From assembly GCF_023380205.1 (NCBI RefSeq), contig NZ_CP093361.1:1454172-1518171 (forward strand): a stretch of DNA of 64,000 bases, written 5' to 3'. Origin of the DNA: Nicoliella spurrieriana (GTDB lineage Bacteria; Bacillota; Bacilli; Lactobacillales; Lactobacillaceae). Below are positions 5,994-52,910 of this stretch, in pieces (within the stretch, counting starts at the first letter, position 1; every line of letters starts with the position of its first letter). The position numbers and the translations under genes were made by a program. The notes under the pieces are model-generated. The model had not been told where the DNA came from, did not search any database, and saw only the letters and a list, made by a program, of their open reading frames with translations.

Positions 5994-6225
5994 CAAAAAA
6001 AGCTCCATTCCTTAATTAAAAGGGACGAAGCTGCGCGGTACCACCCTACTTTAGGCGACCAAGGCCACCCACTCTTGAAGTCAATAACGGTGACGACCGG
6101 ATATTTTTTGTCATTTCAACGCCCAATACCTGTTCAGAAAATGAATTCAGTCGACCTGCGGCTACTCTCAGCAATGATAACCTCTCTGTGAAACGATCAA
6201 CCTACTAATTTTTCGTCGTAACATA
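5994..6225 (-). promoter_or_regulatory. T-box leader of pheST (Phe)
   Basis: Read on the minus strand, the 304-base gap upstream of pheS carries the T-box consensus AGGGTGGTACCGCG (6034-6047). A terminator hairpin ending in a T run follows at about 5994-6027. Stem I lies upstream. The codon UUC (6143-6145), preceded by GAA and followed by A, is the likely specifier and matches phenylalanine. Uncharged tRNA-Phe would stabilise the antiterminator and allow read-through. The limits and the specifier are read by eye; the T-box sequence itself is certain. Confidence 0.9.
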
Positions 6226-6271
6226 TCTAAATTGATATTAACCTATTCAATGTAATTAATCAAGCTTCTTT

Positions 6272-19348: not shown

Positions 19349-19478
19349 AAAAAGCAGAAAAAGCGGGCGCACGAAGGCACCCGCTTTTTAATTCGACATC
19401 AATCGAATCTTTACCGTACATTTGCCCAGCGACTTAGGTCCCTAAGGCGAGAAGCGGGATGCTTCTGCTTTTTATCTG
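19349..19478 (-). promoter_or_regulatory. infC leader with attenuator (L20-leader-like)
   Basis: The leader between the infC promoter and its ribosome binding site contains a terminator: arm AAAAAGCGGGTGC (19377-19389) pairs with GCGCCCGCTTTTT (19358-19370). Upstream, GCATCCCGCTT (19452-19462) can pair instead with AAGCGGGTGC of the terminator arm, and AAAAAGCAG (19465-19473) is an exact complement of CTGCTTTTT (19349-19357). The alternative pairings fit a switch. In B. subtilis the same operon is attenuated by L20; the L20 role here is inference. Confidence 0.8.
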
Positions 19479-45500: not shown

Positions 45501-45538
45501 GATAAAATGTTATAATTTTTTCAAGAGGGGTGAACAAT

Positions 45539-45886
45539 ATGAAAATAAGCAATTGCGTAGTAATTACTGCCGGACTATTGTTTAGTTGCTTTGCATCTCC
45601 AAGCGTCGCAAATGCTGCCACCGGCTATGGGTACGCTAGTACGGCTACCCACAAAGTGAAAACCACTAAACCCATGAAGGTCTATAAAGTCCTGGTCGGC
45701 AAGGATGAAGCTCATAATCAGTTCTTCAAAGCCGGCAAGATCAAACGGGGCACCCATTTATCAGTTAGCGACTGGGTCATGAGTACCGGTGGTGGATACG
45801 TGGTTACCGGTCAATACCACTTAAAGCCAACTAGTAAGACGTTCTATTTTGTATTCGATCAAAATCAAAAGAAATGGTTTAAATAA
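45539..45886 (+). CDS. Small secreted protein of unknown function
   Basis: A 115-residue protein with a clear signal peptide: MKISNCVVITAGLLFSCFA, then a cleavage site after VANA. The mature part (about 87 residues) is basic and rich in Tyr, Lys, Thr and Gly, with beta-like repeats such as TTKPMKVYKVL and HLKPTSKTFYFVF. This resembles small lactobacillar surface domains in flavour, but I recognise no family. The ATG at 45539 has AAGAGGGG at 8 bases, with TATAAT at 45511-45516. It is 38 bases upstream of a second secreted protein. Confidence 0.75.
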   Translation: MKISNCVVITAGLLFSCFASPSVANAATGYGYASTATHKVKTTKPMKVYKVLVGKDEAHNQFFKAGKIKRGTHLSVSDWVMSTGGGYVVTGQYHLKPTSKTFYFVFDQNQKKWFK

Positions 45887-45924
45887 TAGCGATTCAAACA
45901 AACTACTTCAAATGGGATGATGTT

Positions 45925-46713
45925 ATGAAAAATTATAGGTGGCTCTTTTTAGTTCTTTTTACGATGTGTGTCGGTTATCAAATTACTAATACGGTAGCAC
46001 GGGCCAATTCTGGCATCCTAGATACATATCTTAATGGCGGCTACACTGCTTTTTCGAATGCAGTTAAGGATGCTAATAATCCAAACTACTTTGACCCTCA
46101 CAATGCAGGTGATTACTATACCAAGATTCCAAAGGGATATCACTTCTTGATGGTTCGGAAAAACACTATCATCGGTGCAGCTGAAAAAATGAATGGCTTA
46201 CCCACTTATCCGGTTCCATATGGTGATACGTTCATCGTTAATCAGATTATTAATGATAACGGGAAATACAGGTTTAAAGTTCATAATGAAAATCCATTCG
46301 CTACTCGGAAGACCCAATATATCTCTGCTAATCGGAAACTGGTGCAATTTATTTCAGATTCACTTAGGGTGAACCTTAGTGGAACTGCTGATCCACGAGA
46401 AACCAAAAATCCGGGTAAGTACTACCCCACCATTGCAGTTCCAACTGTCATCATGCAAGCCCTTATCCAACGTGACTATGGTAATCCTCCATACAAGCCA
46501 GCAACGTTCAAACGCGCTAGGAAACGGGCCCCTGGCGAGGAAAAACTACTAGTTAAATACTTTAAGAATCATGAAGTCAAGCCGATCAGTTACTATGTCA
46601 AACGGCATCAATTTTTTGATCGATACTTTGGTCTAAGGGGGAGTTCATCAGTAGTGAACTATCGTAAATATTTCCCCAAAAAGTTTTTAGACGTTCGAAA
46701 CTATCTAAAATAA
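45925..46713 (+). CDS. Secreted protein of unknown function
   Basis: A 262-residue protein with an N-terminal export signal (WLFLVLFTMCVGYQI; possible cleavage after VARA or later). The mature part is basic and aromatic, with an YHFLMVRKNTIIG stretch like the beta strands of its neighbour, a central segment with PYGDTFIVNQII, and a Lys/Arg-rich C-terminal half. No catalytic motif or wall anchor is seen. AATGGGATGATGTT precedes the ATG, so the site is weak; coupling to the upstream secreted gene is plausible. Confidence 0.75.
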   Translation: MKNYRWLFLVLFTMCVGYQITNTVARANSGILDTYLNGGYTAFSNAVKDANNPNYFDPHNAGDYYTKIPKGYHFLMVRKNTIIGAAEKMNGLPTYPVPYGDTFIVNQIINDNGKYRFKVHNENPFATRKTQYISANRKLVQFISDSLRVNLSGTADPRETKNPGKYYPTIAVPTVIMQALIQRDYGNPPYKPATFKRARKRAPGEEKLLVKYFKNHEVKPISYYVKRHQFFDRYFGLRGSSSVVNYRKYFPKKFLDVRNYLK

Positions 46714-46761
46714 CGTCGGTAGTTCCATAATTGGTTCAACGAAATCTGATCGTAAACAAAT

Positions 46762-46812
46762 AAAGCCACAATTGCCCTGAGAAATCAACTCCAGGAGTAA
46801 TTGTGGTTTTAT
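46762..46812 (+). terminator. Terminator of the secreted-protein pair
   Basis: CCACAATT (46766-46773) pairs with AATTGTGG (46799-46806), with inner CCTG/CAGG pairing, followed by TTTT. Confidence 0.72.
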
Positions 46813-47063: not shown

Positions 47064-47115
47064 AAAAATGGTTCTTGGTAGCAGAAATATTCATTTCCTA
47101 CGTCAAGAACCATTT
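47064..47115 (-). terminator. Long hairpin, probable terminator of the asnB-murE-asl-racD operon
   Basis: AAATGGTTCTTG (47066-47077) and CAAGAACCATTT (47104-47115) are perfect 12-bp inverted repeats, with inner GTAG/CTAC pairing. Read on the minus strand the hairpin is followed by TT AAATTT-type sequence, 35 bases beyond racD. Confidence 0.72.
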
Positions 47116-47149: not shown

Positions 47150-47863
47150 TTATTTAGATTGACGATTGCGCTCTGCTAGTTCGATCGTTCGATCTACTAA
47201 TACCGATTGTGCATCCATCACCGGATAGGAATGGTTGCCAGCCTGTTCTTGAGCAACCGATAGTTCGGTACATCCTAAAATTACAATATCACTCTTTAAG
47301 GTATTGACCATTTGGGCCAAGATATGATGATAGCGATTAGCATTCACCGTTCCATTTTCCTTAATATCGTGATAGATCAAATTCATGGTTTCATCCCGGA
47401 TTTCCGCAGTTGGTTTAACGACTTCAAAGCCGGCTGCTTGAATTTCATGGTCATAGACACCATCATGGAGCGTCCCATTCGTGGCAATTAGCCCCACCCG
47501 CTTGGCAGTTGGATAACTAATTTTAATCTGCTCAACGGCCTCCCGTGGCATGTGCAAAATCGGCACGTCAGTTGCGGCTTGTAGCTGATCATAAAAGTAA
47601 TGGGCAGTATTACAAGGCAACGTAAAGAAGTCCGGTTTCAGCAACGATTGTTGCTTGATATCCTCAAGTAGATCCGGGAGCGGATTGGGCTTAGTATGAT
47701 CCAAAATATAAGCGGTCCGATCAGGAACGGTTGCATGGTTGACCAAAATATAATTGAGGTAGTCTTGATCATGATGCGCCGGTGTCCGTTGGTTCAAAAG
47801 ATGCAGATAGCTTTCGGTCGCTTGCGTCCCCATTCCCCCGATGATCGAGAAAAAGTGCTTCAT
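47150..47863 (-). CDS. racD: Aspartate racemase (Asp/Glu racemase family)
   Basis: Interconverts L- and D-aspartate without a cofactor. The two catalytic cysteines are Cys84 in TLPCNTAHYF and Cys198 in LGCTELSV, both in the family context. The N-terminal FSIIGGMGTQATESYL is the substrate-loop signature. Its 237 residues are typical. It lies 6 bases after the D-aspartate ligase gene, so its product would supply D-Asp for the cell wall. Confidence 0.92.
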   Translation of the reverse strand: MKHFFSIIGGMGTQATESYLHLLNQRTPAHHDQDYLNYILVNHATVPDRTAYILDHTKPNPLPDLLEDIKQQSLLKPDFFTLPCNTAHYFYDQLQAATDVPILHMPREAVEQIKISYPTAKRVGLIATNGTLHDGVYDHEIQAAGFEVVKPTAEIRDETMNLIYHDIKENGTVNANRYHHILAQMVNTLKSDIVILGCTELSVAQEQAGNHSYPVMDAQSVLVDRTIELAERNRQSK

Positions 47864-47869
47864 TGAAAC

Positions 47870-49120
47870 CTACCCCTTATTAATTGCAAAGTATTTTGCG
47901 AAATTCTTGCTGTAGTTATGGAACATCCACTTCATCAAGGCCCAGCGTTTTAAATTGCGGTCCTTTGAATACCAAAAAGTGGTTCCGTACTGGTTTTGAT
48001 CAATTAATTTTAATGCTGCTTGCTTTTCAGCATTGTCCTTAGCGTATTGCTTAAATACGGCAACGCTTACCCCTAGCCATAGGTAGTACTTCGCCGGGTC
48101 TTGATTAGCATAAACGGGCGCTTGATCTGATAGTGAATCAAAGGCATAGTCTTGAACGACCCAGTCAGCCAGATTATACCCATTTAACGTCACAAAGAAG
48201 CTACTCCGCCCCTGGCGCAGGTTAATTTCAAATAGCTTAAAGGAACCGTCACGCACATCGTATTTCATATCGAAATTTGCATACCCGGTAAATTCAATTG
48301 CTTCCAAAAACGTTTGAATCTGATTATAAATGGTTTGATTGTATTCTGGAATAATGGCTACATAATTTCCAATCGCAGAGGGTGCGCAGTCTTCTAGTAA
48401 TGGATGCCCTAAACACATCATTTTAACATGGTGGTGTTTATCAACGTAGGCGTTTAAGACCCGCATATTACTATCATCCCCCGGAATAAAGTCCTGCAAA
48501 ATCAAATCCGAAGTATACCCATTATCATAAATTTTACCGACAATGTCATTGAATTCCGCTGCTGATTTAATCACAAATGCCTTTTTCCGGCCCTCAAAGT
48601 GAACATCGAGCCACTCCACACTGTTTGTAGGCTTCAATGCAACTGGATAGCCAAACGGTTGCTCAATTGGGGTGGTTGACTCATACATTGCCTTACTAAT
48701 GATCTTAGTCTTAGGATATGGCAAATTGTACTTATCACAAGTTCGATAAAAATTTTCCTTACTGTTCAACTGGCGAATTAAATCATAGTCAACGTATGGA
48801 CATACAAAGACATCTGACAATTCATCCTTATGCTTGGAAATTAGTTCTGCATACCCATCCCCACAACCAATCAAAATAACTGGTTCAGAGTGATTAGCGT
48901 ATTGTTGTTTTAACTTCCGCATTGCTTGGATCCACTGTGGATCTTCACTAAAGCCAGGAATTAGTTCTAAATCAACAATCTTCGTGAACCGGGTCGGTGC
49001 TAATTGAATTTCGGCATAGGCCTTGACCGGTTTACCGTACTTTTCGTAAAGTGAGCGGGCCATTCCATAGCAGTTAAAGTCACTCCCCAATAGAATCGGG
49101 GTAAAGTCAGTTTCACTCAT
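47870..49120 (-). CDS. asl: ATP-grasp D-aspartate ligase (cross-bridge)
   Basis: A 416-residue ATP-grasp carboxylate-amine ligase. The ATP-binding region includes YPVALKPTNSVEW and LILQDFIPGDDSN, and the metal ligands are in LFEINLRQGRSSFF. This is the family of AslA/Aslfm, which activates the beta-carboxyl of D-Asp and joins it to the epsilon-amino group of the stem-peptide lysine. The racD neighbour and the lysine-type MurE upstream make D-aspartate ligase the best call. It starts 4 bases after murE. Confidence 0.88.
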   Translation of the reverse strand: MSETDFTPILLGSDFNCYGMARSLYEKYGKPVKAYAEIQLAPTRFTKIVDLELIPGFSEDPQWIQAMRKLKQQYANHSEPVILIGCGDGYAELISKHKDELSDVFVCPYVDYDLIRQLNSKENFYRTCDKYNLPYPKTKIISKAMYESTTPIEQPFGYPVALKPTNSVEWLDVHFEGRKKAFVIKSAAEFNDIVGKIYDNGYTSDLILQDFIPGDDSNMRVLNAYVDKHHHVKMMCLGHPLLEDCAPSAIGNYVAIIPEYNQTIYNQIQTFLEAIEFTGYANFDMKYDVRDGSFKLFEINLRQGRSSFFVTLNGYNLADWVVQDYAFDSLSDQAPVYANQDPAKYYLWLGVSVAVFKQYAKDNAEKQAALKLIDQNQYGTTFWYSKDRNLKRWALMKWMFHNYSKNFAKYFAINKG

Positions 49121-49124
49121 TATT

Positions 49125-50666
49125 CTAGAATCCCTTCAAGATATTTTTGACCACCACTGAGTCGGTCTCATAAGGTGTATCAACACCATTGATTTTTTGG
49201 TAGGGGTCACGCCCCTTCCCTGCAACTACGACCATGTCGTTTTGACTAGCTAACTCAATGGCTTGAGCAATGGCCTGTTTGCGATCCATTTCAAAATGAA
49301 CTGTCACCCGCTGGTGGTCGATATGAGCATCAATTTCATTGGCAATTGTGCGTGGATCCTCAAATGCAGGGTCGTCAGTGGTTAAAAAGGCAACGTCAGC
49401 ATTTTGACTCAACGCCTTCCCGAACCCCTCTCTGCGATCTTCACCCTTGTTACCAGGGCTACCGACCACTACGATGACCCGGCCGGCTGGATTTTCACGT
49501 TTCAAGAACCCTAATAACGCGTTCATACTAGCGTAATTATGAGCATAGTCAACATATACCGTTCCATGCCCATGACTACGGTAGCTTTCCATGCGTCCTG
49601 GAATCATCACGGTCGCAAGTCCGGTGGCAATTTGGGTCTGATTTGCTCCGGCAATGCCAGCTGCAATGATGGCAGCAGTCGCATTGGACTCGTTATAATC
49701 ACCAGCAATTGCAATTTGATAATTCCCAGCTAACTGCATTTGAACACTCCGGTCGTCAGTAGCTACTAAATCAATTGCATTGTGATCAAGCGTGTCAGCA
49801 GTGCTTACGAACCTAAAGTCAGGGGATAGCGGTAATTGTAACTTAACATCCTTCCGTGCAAATAAATAAATGTTTTCTGGTTGGCTCGTGGCCTTGGCCG
49901 TTTGGTAAACATCGTTTAAATAGTCCGTTTCAGCATTTATGATGCACACCGTCGAGTTAACCAGGAGTTGTTCCTTGCAGTGTAAATAATCCGCAAAGGT
50001 CGGGTGTTCATTCGGCCCAATATGATCAGGTGAAATGTTTAGAAAAATGCCCACATCAAAGTGCAGCCCATACACCCGATTTTTCTTGTATGCTTGTGAT
50101 GAGACCTCCATTACTAAATGGGTCATCCCATTATCAACAGCGGTCCGCATGTACTTGAAAATATCAAGTGATTCGGGCGTCGTTAGGTGCGATTTGAACC
50201 GTTGAGCTGGTTTGGGTCCCACCACCGTATCAATCGTTGATATCAAGGCGGTTCGGTGGTTAGTCTGGTTCATTAAGGCCTGGTACGTAAAATAAGCAGA
50301 GGTGGTTTTCCCCTTCGTTCCGGTATAGGCAATGATGAAGAGCTCGTTTTGTGGATAGCCATAAAACGCAGCCCCCAATAGCGCCATTGCCTTTTGAACG
50401 TCTTTAACGATAATTGCCGTTAAGTTTAAATCTGCTGCCACTGGTTGTTCGGCTTCAGCAAGGTACCCAATCGCACCATGCTGTGCAGCAACCCTTAAAT
50501 ATTCAGGTTTAAAGTTTCCCTTACAACAAAATAGGTCGTTTAGTTCAATTAACCTTGAGTCATATTCAATATTTGCAAACGTTACGGCTTCAAGCGGTCC
50601 GCTGATGTTGATCAAAAGCGCGTGTTCTTGTAGCAGTGTAATTAATTCTTCAATTTTTAAAGCCAC
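49125..50666 (-). CDS. murE: UDP-MurNAc-tripeptide synthetase, L-lysine type
   Basis: Adds the third residue of the stem peptide. The P-loop is TGTKGKTTSAYF (about residues 114-125), and the UDP-MurNAc-peptide contacts include HLTTPESLDIF. The specificity motif near the C-terminus is DDPA rather than DNPR, which favours L-lysine over diaminopimelate. The N-terminal domain (1-100) and MurE C-domain (about 350-513) are complete at 513 residues. The start is GTG (50664-50666) behind GAAGGGTG. It is 27 bases after asnB. Confidence 0.92.
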   Translation of the reverse strand: MALKIEELITLLQEHALLINISGPLEAVTFANIEYDSRLIELNDLFCCKGNFKPEYLRVAAQHGAIGYLAEAEQPVAADLNLTAIIVKDVQKAMALLGAAFYGYPQNELFIIAYTGTKGKTTSAYFTYQALMNQTNHRTALISTIDTVVGPKPAQRFKSHLTTPESLDIFKYMRTAVDNGMTHLVMEVSSQAYKKNRVYGLHFDVGIFLNISPDHIGPNEHPTFADYLHCKEQLLVNSTVCIINAETDYLNDVYQTAKATSQPENIYLFARKDVKLQLPLSPDFRFVSTADTLDHNAIDLVATDDRSVQMQLAGNYQIAIAGDYNESNATAAIIAAGIAGANQTQIATGLATVMIPGRMESYRSHGHGTVYVDYAHNYASMNALLGFLKRENPAGRVIVVVGSPGNKGEDRREGFGKALSQNADVAFLTTDDPAFEDPRTIANEIDAHIDHQRVTVHFEMDRKQAIAQAIELASQNDMVVVAGKGRDPYQKINGVDTPYETDSVVVKNILKGF

Positions 50667-50693
50667 TGCAATTTCACCCTTCCTAAAACAACA

Positions 50694-52574
50694 TTATTTT
50701 GTCTTATGAACCAATTCAACGGTCTTAGCAGAGGTATTTTCAGGGAAAAATACTTCATACCAAAGAATAAACGTGTAAATGGTAAAAATCTTTTGCATGT
50801 TAGACTTACCATTTGCGTGTTCTTTGACGATTCGTTGTAATTCATCGACATTAAAGAAGCGTTGCGCAACGTCTGAAGTAAAGGCTTCTTCGATCTTAGC
50901 ATGGAACTTTGGCATGTTCATCCATGAAGCGATTGGGGATGGGAAGCCCATCTTTTCCTTATTAGCGACCCGTTCTGGTAGGGCAGCCATTGCAGCTTTT
51001 CTAAGTGAGACCTTGGTTTCACCCTTATGAATTCTGGTTTTAATTGGCATCGTAGCGGCAAAATCAGCCACCTTCTTATCAACCAACGGGGTCCGCACTT
51101 CCAGTGAGTTACACATACTCATCCGATCGGCCTTGTGCAAAATATCGAATGGTAACCAGGTATTGATGTCAAAGTATTGCATTTGCGTCATTTCATCCTT
51201 ACCAGCCACTTCATCAAAAATGTGCTTGGTGAACTCACCAGAATCCCGGTTTAATGATGGGTCCTTTAAAACCCGGTCCCGGTCTTCATAATTAAAGACG
51301 TAGTTTACCCGGTAGTAACGCTCGCTAAGTGGTTGGGCCCCTCTAATTAAGAATCGCCGGCCATGGAAGCGCGGTAGTTTTTCAGCAACCGATGCTAAGC
51401 CCTTTCTAATTGGCTTGGGGACCCATCTTTGGTAACGTTCAAACGGAAATGCTTCTAGGTAGGTATTGTAACCACCAAAGAATTCATCGGCCCCTTCACC
51501 TGATAGTGCTGCTTTTACATCTTGACGGGTCCGTCGAGATAGGTAAAATAATTGAACGGCAGATGGGTTCGAAAGTGGTTCGTCCATGTAATACATCATG
51601 GTTGGCAAGAAGTTAAAGTAGTCATCACCATTAATGTAAATCGGCGTGTTCTTTTGGCCAATTTCCTTAGCAAATTCCGTAGACCATGCTAATTCACTAT
51701 ACTTGGAGTTCTTAAACCCTAGTGAAAATGATTGGATGGGTTTGAGTTTGGCTGCTTCATTCAAAACGTAACTTGAATCCACCCCACTGGAGAGAAAACT
51801 ACCAACTGGTACGTCTGAGATCATGTGCTTTTCAACTGATTCCTTAACGATCTTGCTAATTTGCTTAGCATCACCATCAATCGTTTGGTTTTCGTCAATG
51901 TGATCGTAGTTAAAGCGGAAGTAGCGGTGCACTTCAGTGTCGCCACCAATCTTATGAACAAAGTATTGTCCTGGTAGGACCTTGTAAACGTTCTTGAACA
52001 TCGTATCGCGTGATGGAACAAATTCAAAACTTAAGTGAATTGGTAACATATCGATATTTACTTGCTTGTTGAAATTAGGGTGATCCAAAAACGCCTTAAT
52101 TTCAGAGCCCCACATGAATGCATCGCCATCATCATAGTAGTAAAGGGGCTTAATGCCAAAGTGATCACGAACCCCAAAGACTTCTTGCTTCTTACTATCA
52201 TAGATTACGAATGCATACATTCCACGAAGCCGCTTCAATAAATCTGGACCCCATTCTTCGTATCCACGAATCAAGACTTCAGAATCAACGTCGGTATAAA
52301 ATTTGTGACCCTTTTGCTTTAATTCTTCCCTGATTTCTTCGTAGTTATAAATTTCACCATTAAAAGTGAGGACCTTGGTGTTATCTTCACTAAACATTGG
52401 TTGACCACCGTGCGCAAGGTCTAAAAATGACAATCTCCGAAAGCCCATTGAAACATTATCATCTTGGAAGTATTGTTCATCATCTGGGCCCCGGTGTCTA
52501 ATCCGATTAGCCATGTTAACAATCGTATTACTAGGGACATCCTTTTGATTTACATAACCAGTGAATCCACACAT
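50694..52574 (-). CDS. asnB: Glutamine-hydrolysing asparagine synthase family (possible D-Asp amidase)
   Basis: A 626-residue class II glutamine amidotransferase. Cys2 of MCGFTGYV is the glutaminase nucleophile, with RHRGPDDE and the NGEIYNY loop. The synthetase domain has the PP-loop LSSGVDSSY and GEGADEFFGGY. The start is the ATG at 52574 (AAGGGGA site), which leaves Cys2 at the N-terminus; a longer frame would not. Upstream of murE-asl-racD it may amidate D-Asp of the cross-bridge, as AsnH does in Lactococcus lactis; free asparagine synthesis is the alternative. Confidence 0.9.
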   Translation of the reverse strand: MCGFTGYVNQKDVPSNTIVNMANRIRHRGPDDEQYFQDDNVSMGFRRLSFLDLAHGGQPMFSEDNTKVLTFNGEIYNYEEIREELKQKGHKFYTDVDSEVLIRGYEEWGPDLLKRLRGMYAFVIYDSKKQEVFGVRDHFGIKPLYYYDDGDAFMWGSEIKAFLDHPNFNKQVNIDMLPIHLSFEFVPSRDTMFKNVYKVLPGQYFVHKIGGDTEVHRYFRFNYDHIDENQTIDGDAKQISKIVKESVEKHMISDVPVGSFLSSGVDSSYVLNEAAKLKPIQSFSLGFKNSKYSELAWSTEFAKEIGQKNTPIYINGDDYFNFLPTMMYYMDEPLSNPSAVQLFYLSRRTRQDVKAALSGEGADEFFGGYNTYLEAFPFERYQRWVPKPIRKGLASVAEKLPRFHGRRFLIRGAQPLSERYYRVNYVFNYEDRDRVLKDPSLNRDSGEFTKHIFDEVAGKDEMTQMQYFDINTWLPFDILHKADRMSMCNSLEVRTPLVDKKVADFAATMPIKTRIHKGETKVSLRKAAMAALPERVANKEKMGFPSPIASWMNMPKFHAKIEEAFTSDVAQRFFNVDELQRIVKEHANGKSNMQKIFTIYTFILWYEVFFPENTSAKTVELVHKTK

Positions 52575-52646
52575 ATTAATTTTCCCCTTTATTATTATCA
52601 ATTCTTAGTTATTTTTAAATTAAATTTAAATAATCTTCAAGTACTA

Positions 52647-52655
52647 ATTGTATCA
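52647..52655 (-). promoter_or_regulatory. Probable promoter of asnB-murE-asl-racD
   Basis: TGATACAAT on the minus strand is an extended -10 element about 73 bases before the asnB ATG in an AT-rich 247-base gap. The -35 is weak. Confidence 0.5.
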
Positions 52656-52821
52656 AAAAATAATTTGATAAACTACTACCGTTGCTATTTCTTAACAAAA
52701 GTTGCAGATGTTATTAATTCAATTGACTATTCCTTATAATACCCATTTTGCAAATTTTAGCAACTAAATTTGACCAGTAACTTTATTTTATTACTGAATT
52801 ATAGTAAAATATTAGTTGCTT

Positions 52822-52906
52822 GCCCCAATGGCGGAATTGGCAGACGCGCAGCGTTCAGGTCGCTGTTTGATTTTATCAAGTACAGGTTCGAATCCTGCTT
52901 GGGGCA
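52822..52906 (+). tRNA. tRNA-Leu (anticodon CAG)
   Basis: An 85-base class II tRNA: acceptor GCCCCAA/TTGGGGC, anticodon stem CAGCG/CGCTG with loop TTCAGGT (anticodon CAG), long variable arm around TTGATTTTATCAA, T-arm ACAGG/CCTGC-type with TTCGAAT loop. CCA is not encoded. A terminator follows at once. Confidence 0.95.
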
Positions 52907-52910
52907 TCAC

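Follow-up and report, generated by a model that had tools for sequence, protein, structure and literature searches.

The window examined here is a stretch of 64,000 nucleotides from Nicoliella spurrieriana (contig NZ_CP093361.1, positions 1,454,172 to 1,518,171), and its minus strand carries four consecutive genes in the order asnB-murE-asl-racD. The asnB gene (50694-52574) encodes 626 amino acids from an ATG that places a cysteine at position 2, with an alternative, longer TTG start at 52601; it is followed by murE (49125-50666; 513 amino acids, GTG start), asl (47870-49120; 416 amino acids) and racD (47150-47863; 237 amino acids). The intergenic gaps in the open reading frame (ORF) calls are 27, 4 and 6 bases, in agreement with the first-pass annotation of this DNA. 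We consider it highly probable that the four genes form an operon that supplies both the residue at stem position three and the cross-bridge in a peptidoglycan of type A4alpha L-Lys-D-Asx, with an AsnB of a clade that we call op serving as the amidating enzyme. In such a pathway RacD would convert L-Asp to D-Asp, MurE would add L-Lys onto UDP-MurNAc-L-Ala-D-Glu, Asl would join the beta-carboxyl of D-Asp to the epsilon-amine of the stem lysine, and AsnB would use ammonia from glutamine to amidate D-Asp to D-Asn on the precursor. The chemistry of the racemase, MurE, Asl and amidation steps is reported as established for these families (PMC4155827).

Probable enzymes for the stem lysine and the bridge

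RacD passes TIGR00035 (248.3 bits against a cut-off of 93.1) and has only two cysteines, C84 in LPCNTAH and C198 in LGCTE, so that both catalytic cysteines are kept, as had been noted earlier. Asl matches no Pfam family and reaches only ATP-grasp type models, far under their cut-offs; because a search of PDB sequences with Asl gave no match at E 0.1, a fold model was made with AlphaFold2 from 14 orthologues (mean predicted local distance difference test score, pLDDT, 74.6). In structure comparison the model matches ATP-grasp enzymes, with 2pn1 at the top by Z (21.0). PylC is found at Z 18 to 19 (best entry Z 19.2, root-mean-square deviation 3.9 over 292 residues); many ATP-grasp enzymes score similarly (Z 18 to 20). 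The PylC structures include L-lysine and L-lysine-N-epsilon-D-ornithine as ligands. As modelled, Asl has an ATP-grasp fold, and a shared fold does not establish function. The protein also shares 64% identity with the only Asl match in a Lactobacillus casei-group genome (G049, so labelled because it contains one perfect copy of a 20-base primer sequence for L. casei asnH), and with the fold model this upholds the proposal that the gene fits a D-aspartate ligase. The pairing of D-aspartate ligase and aspartate racemase that an L-Lys-D-Asx pathway requires thus appears, on sequence and model, to be present. Counting weak matches too, 203 of 301 Lactobacillaceae genomes match Asl at E 0.001 or better.

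The window MurE passes TIGR01085 and is the sole MurE over that cut-off in the genome. It reads DDPA at residues 431-434, where enzymes that add diaminopimelate (DAP) have DNPR, and its alignment to solved MurE enzymes forms part of the evidence for a lysine type. According to PMC3829189 the Arg of DNPR holds the DAP carboxylate; the lysine enzyme of Staphylococcus aureus reads DNPA, lacks that Arg, contacts lysine through the first Asp of the motif only, and showed no detectable DAP activity when given the Arg; and the motif is not the sole element behind specificity. In the light of these S. aureus results the absent Arg counts against DAP without proving lysine. The first-pass description of DDPA as the motif of lysine enzymes therefore holds as to the residues themselves, but, as S. 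aureus reads DNPA, it is the absence of the Arg that is informative. The window protein is very probably a lysine-type UDP-MurNAc-L-Ala-D-Glu ligase, judging from its sequence.

A survey of 98 aligned MurE rows, made up of 97 collected MurE-like proteins and the window protein and with some genomes present twice, gave DDPA in 47, DDPG in 40, DNPR in 5, DDPS in 2, EDNF in 2, and QDPA and DDPD in 1 each. The DNPR rows (L160, L178, L181, L190 and L192) all belong to two genera, g38 and g3. We note that the EDNF genes are MurE-like genes beside an AsnH-type gene (L163 in G006 and L164 in G103), with that of L163 adjoining a DDPA murE, and that one further locus (L074 in G063) has a tandem murE-murE-asl-racD arrangement in which one murE copy reads QDPA.

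Distribution of the operon and published wall chemistry

Scanning named genomes for relatives of the window AsnB gave 66 loci, and the full asnB-murE-asl-racD order is present in 58 of these 66 loci with a close asnB relative; an order kept so widely is not a chance arrangement. The gaps in these 58 loci have medians of 22, 0 and 6 bases and are at most 532, 6 and 200; two loci have asnB split in two ORFs (L141, L147) and three have one gap of more than 150 bases (L098, L120, L134). Among the exceptions, L087 is without murE, in L136 asnB lies some 4 kb off and the locus reaches past the end of the sequence, and asnB stands alone at L122, L124, L125, L135, L137 and L146, with L122 and L124 ending short downstream. 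Genera with the operon include Lentilactobacillus, Secundilactobacillus, Apilactobacillus, Pediococcus and Philodulcilactobacillus, and the congener Lactobacillus sp. Sy-1 (L083) carries the same four genes. Layouts vary among 40 Asl-bearing stretches from 22 genera, which include the full operon, forms without murE (g16) or without asnB (g23, g27, g33), and asl without either murE or racD (g4, g9 and others). The gene set is ordinary in Lactobacillaceae and not peculiar to this genome. Attention had been drawn at first pass to the placing of asnB and murE in one unit with the bridge genes; the arrangement is real, but it is the rule rather than something special at the loci found in Lentilactobacillus, Secundilactobacillus, Apilactobacillus and Pediococcus.

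Published walls are available for four species that carry the operon. Apilactobacillus apinorum (L117) is reported to have A4alpha L-Lys-D-Asp without meso-DAP (PMC4156108), Philodulcilactobacillus myokoensis (L119) A4alpha L-Lys-D-Asp (PMC10284405), and Pediococcus acidilactici (L112) and Pediococcus pentosaceus (L118) are given the same type in a table in PMC7488000. Because of these four walls, lysine and D-Asp are well supported, by analogy, for the wall of N. spurrieriana as well. The view of the locus as a complete L-Lys-D-Asx cross-bridge unit is borne out by a MurE without the DAP Arg, by Asl and RacD, and by the walls of these species.

The C-terminus of the A2 endolysin provides a possible marker of D-Asn walls, as this domain type is reported to be specific for D-Asp bridges that are amidated (PMC4033162). 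A search of the 301 genomes found it in nine; these include two op-clade pediococci with the full operon (G128, G229), yet also G286 of genus g38, in which the MurE genes examined are of the DNPR type. In phage records there are 49 matches, mostly in Lactococcus and L. casei/paracasei phages. Three of the nine bacterial proteins (L257, L258 and L259, one of them in g38) have secreted-like starts and may target competitors.

AsnB clades op and H

The window AsnB passes TIGR01536 (480.8 bits against a cut-off of 267.1) and is the only gene of its family over that cut-off in the genome. It keeps all 12 catalytic residues, of the glutaminase and synthetase sites, that PMC3885529 lists for the L. 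casei AsnH, as seen by alignment with the AsnH of the L. casei-group genome (L165): 11 of the listed positions have the same numbers in L165 and are identical and aligned in the window protein, and the twelfth, Asp-97, is an Asp at residue 98 in L165 and at 97 in the window AsnB. The L. casei AsnH is reported to be stimulated by wall extract as acceptor and not by free Asp (PMC3885529), and amidation of D-Asp is ascribed to the Lactococcus lactis AsnH (PMC4155827), which is 59% identical to that of L. casei (PMC3885529).

We built a tree of 79 AsnB rows, consisting of 77 chosen from 182 collected family proteins together with the window AsnB and the Escherichia coli AsnB. Groups were preset by identity, at 55% or more to the window AsnB for op and 49% or more to L165 for H, and each of the three resulting groups falls on one side of a branch: op with 26 rows, H with 39 and 'other' with 13, with Shimodaira-Hasegawa-like approximate likelihood ratio test (SH-aLRT) values of 100, 99 and 96. 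Whether op is the sister of H hinges on the very long branch of the E. coli AsnB. Clade H contains L165 and proteins of genus g98 (which, from motif, gene order, size and identity, we take to be Lactococcus) that are 61-62% identical to L165 in six genomes; clade 'other' includes AsnB genes near DNPR MurE genes in genomes of g38, taken on such grounds for the genus of Lactiplantibacillus plantarum; from its place beside MurE, AsnB1 itself would belong to 'other'. The window AsnB lies in op, outside both H and the group beside DNPR-type MurE, with 42.5% identity to L165. The first-pass reading is corrected on this point. Clustering with free-asparagine synthetases, the outcome proposed as a refutation, was not seen; the protein is far from the E. 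coli AsnB, the sole such anchor in the tree.

The distribution of these clades relative to Asl was determined in 74 genomes of the family, chosen by us to span 36 of 40 genera, with AsnB searched at E 1e-45 or better and Asl called strong at E 1e-100 or better. Clade op is present in 12 genomes, all with strong Asl, and H in 28, of which 27 have strong Asl and one has none. Ten genomes have 'other' alone (one strong Asl, one weak, eight without) and 24 have no AsnB clade (three strong, four weak, 17 without). Accordingly, op or H is found in 39 of the 43 strong-Asl genomes and in one of the 31 others (Fisher p 3e-15, uncorrected for descent). The two are never found together in the 74 genomes, for which a second Fisher test gave a p of 1e-7, likewise uncorrected.

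Of 246 genomes of the order outside the family, 94 match Asl at some level, and in 51 the match is strong. Among the 49 strong-Asl genomes checked (G506 and G580 were left out), 48 have an AsnB-family protein matching at 1e-60, the exception being G433. Genomes of family f9 include an op-asl-racD arrangement (L236-L241, L252-L254), as well as the four-gene operon with H in the asnB slot (L249, L250), the slot that op fills in Lactobacillaceae. On an Asl tree of 60 rows drawn from 131 Asl proteins, which has several long branches and for which the AsnB partner of 16 loci was taken from elsewhere in the genome, the partner type changes at least five times, and well-supported branches force at least three changes for op. 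Clades op and H look like alternatives, and this exchange of partners is the main reason for regarding them as doing the same job. Because op and H alternate, share an operon slot and swap on the Asl tree, op-AsnB most likely also amidates the D-Asp of the cross-bridge.

Several observations weigh against this interpretation of the locus. Neither op nor H is present in four of the 43 strong-Asl genomes (G015, G020, G113 and G276), and one genome with H (G133) has no Asl match. The co-occurrence counts come from hand-picked genomes and are uncorrected for descent. In two f9 genomes (G492 and G539; L242-L245) op and H occur together: AsnH adjoins a divergent Asl, and op is found next to racD without an intervening asl. 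No assay of any op-clade member was found in the literature searched. The window MurE passes NF001130, an NCBIfam equivalog named DAP ligase (798.8 bits against 715), and the genome encodes a DapF (DAP epimerase) over its cut-off adjoining an aspartate kinase, so that free DAP may exist in the cell.

It could be argued that op-clade AsnB is a housekeeping synthetase for free L-Asn that merely shares the operon, as would be in keeping with its passing the general model TIGR01536 and with the lack of a second family member over the cut-off. A housekeeping enzyme would hardly be confined to genomes with strong Asl, as op is (all 12, against none of the 31 other genomes in the 74 chosen), or take the place of the AsnH clade in the operon slot and on the Asl tree, and the window protein is 31.5% identical to the E. 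coli AsnB over 486 aligned residues; we regard this explanation as unlikely. Still less credit can be given to a MurE that adds L-ornithine or meso-DAP, resulting in an Orn-D-Asx or DAP-type wall. The name of NF001130 and the DapF gene speak for it, as does the L-Orn-D-Asx wall given for L. fermentum in a table in PMC7488000. Set against these are the Ala that stands in the window MurE at the position of the carboxylate-holding Arg (PMC3829189), the lysine walls of the four species with this MurE type, and the direct DAP link, which would leave Asl idle. The operon MurE proteins of those species (L112, L117, L118, L119) also exceed the NF001130 cut-off, and since species with published L-Lys-D-Asp walls pass it, the model is probably misnamed where this group of lactobacilli is concerned; a DAP route is moreover described as no proof of a DAP wall, as it can serve lysine synthesis (PMC4156108).

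Transcription and flanking signals

Given the gaps of 27, 4 and 6 bases, a single transcript over asnB-murE-asl-racD is likely, and we infer co-regulation of the four genes. There is a small chance that they are adjacent without being co-regulated, with internal promoters or processing uncoupling asnB-murE from asl-racD. The genes do stand apart elsewhere, as in g4 and g9, where asl was found with neither murE nor racD next to it, in g16, without murE there, and at some Ligilactobacillus and Fructilactobacillus loci that have asnB alone. The gaps, however, are too small for an intergenic promoter, although an intragenic one is possible, and they are similarly small across the 58 loci.

Upstream, the unit is bounded by a plus-strand tRNA-Leu gene (52821-52908). 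An extended -10 promoter-like element, TGATACAAT (52647-52655, minus strand), and the ribosome binding site of asnB, AAAGGGGA (52583-52590, minus strand), were identified by eye; the stretch holding the former and the latter site itself are conserved in Lactobacillus sp. Sy-1. A consensus promoter scan upstream of asnB gave sites of 9 of 12 at best, with TGATACAAT not among them, and performed near chance (24 sites found against 17.2 expected). The 12-base-pair hairpin noted after racD is present on the minus strand with perfect arms (47066-47077 and 47104-47115), and its surroundings fold better than 200 of 200 shuffles (z -4.99). It is a possible terminator, and no firmer term is warranted because the region downstream of racD aligns poorly in the congener, where the hairpin is not conserved.

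An Rfam scan found no riboswitch or T-box at the operon; its matches elsewhere in the window are a T-box (6018-6228) and an L20 leader (19349-19476). Downstream of the operon, plus-strand positions 45530-46713 hold two ORFs with secreted-like starts and no Pfam family match, and an inverted repeat of 14 bases, 93% complementary, lies between convergent genes at 46760-46812.

A site swap and the relation to known systems

Two genomes of genus g3 differ at one site. In G042 (L190) a signal peptidase I gene is followed by an 'other'-clade AsnB and a divergent DNPR murE. G073 (L160), which alone of the g3 genomes appears among the Asl matches, has at that site a second murE (DDPD), an op asnB and asl, with the DNPR murE kept as a 504-amino-acid open frame. 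From this difference it seems that a DAP-type lineage can acquire the unit, although loss in the others is also possible. We offer as a tentative idea, with the balance somewhat against it, that wall chemistry is transferred in cassette form, the amidase slot being exchangeable and filled by either of two AsnB clades, and that a DAP-type lineage can take up complete Lys/D-Asp cassettes. In that case a cell such as G073 would contain MurE enzymes of the lysine and the DAP type and might combine the two stem chemistries or alternate between them. The two genomes make a natural pair for studying how species change wall type.

The point deserving attention is the amidase clade op and its repeated exchange, the AsnH that has been studied being of a different branch. 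Neither the four-gene unit nor the op clade was found described in the literature searched, which likewise yielded no D-Asn measurement for an op-clade species. Cross-bridge and amidation are reported to influence the action of autolysins, endolysins and antimicrobial peptides on lactic acid bacteria (PMC4155827). If op is a second D-Asp amidase, D-Asn walls become predictable in at least eight genera (g1, g3, g14, g16, g23, g27, g34 and g36) whose searched genomes yielded an op gene but no AsnH. The NCBIfam DAP-ligase name of the operon MurE is suspect for a group of lactobacilli.

Among known systems, the AsnH of L. lactis and of L. casei (Lacticaseibacillus casei) resembles the window AsnB in its family, its catalytic residues and its tie to Asl; AsnH adjoins asl in g98 genomes just as asnB shares a unit with asl in the window, and yet the two differ in sequence (L165) and belong to separate clades. 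The aslA-racD operon of L. lactis joins an ATP-grasp D-aspartate ligase to a racemase, as in the window (PMC4155827), and the Asl of Enterococcus faecium is an ATP-grasp D-aspartate ligase like that of the window; relative to both, the window unit additionally holds murE and asnB. The asnB1-murE pair of L. plantarum, concerned with amidation of meso-DAP, also places an amidotransferase near murE (PMC4155827), but the g38 loci compared with it (L178, L181, L192) have an AsnB of the third clade and a DNPR MurE, and the Asl matches in the 301 Lactobacillaceae genomes include none from g38; the window AsnB in turn lies outside the AsnB1-like clade of genes beside DNPR MurE. The closest counterparts are the operons of Pediococcus, Lentilactobacillus, Secundilactobacillus and Apilactobacillus, which share the four genes, their order and the AsnB clade and differ from the window only by sequence divergence.

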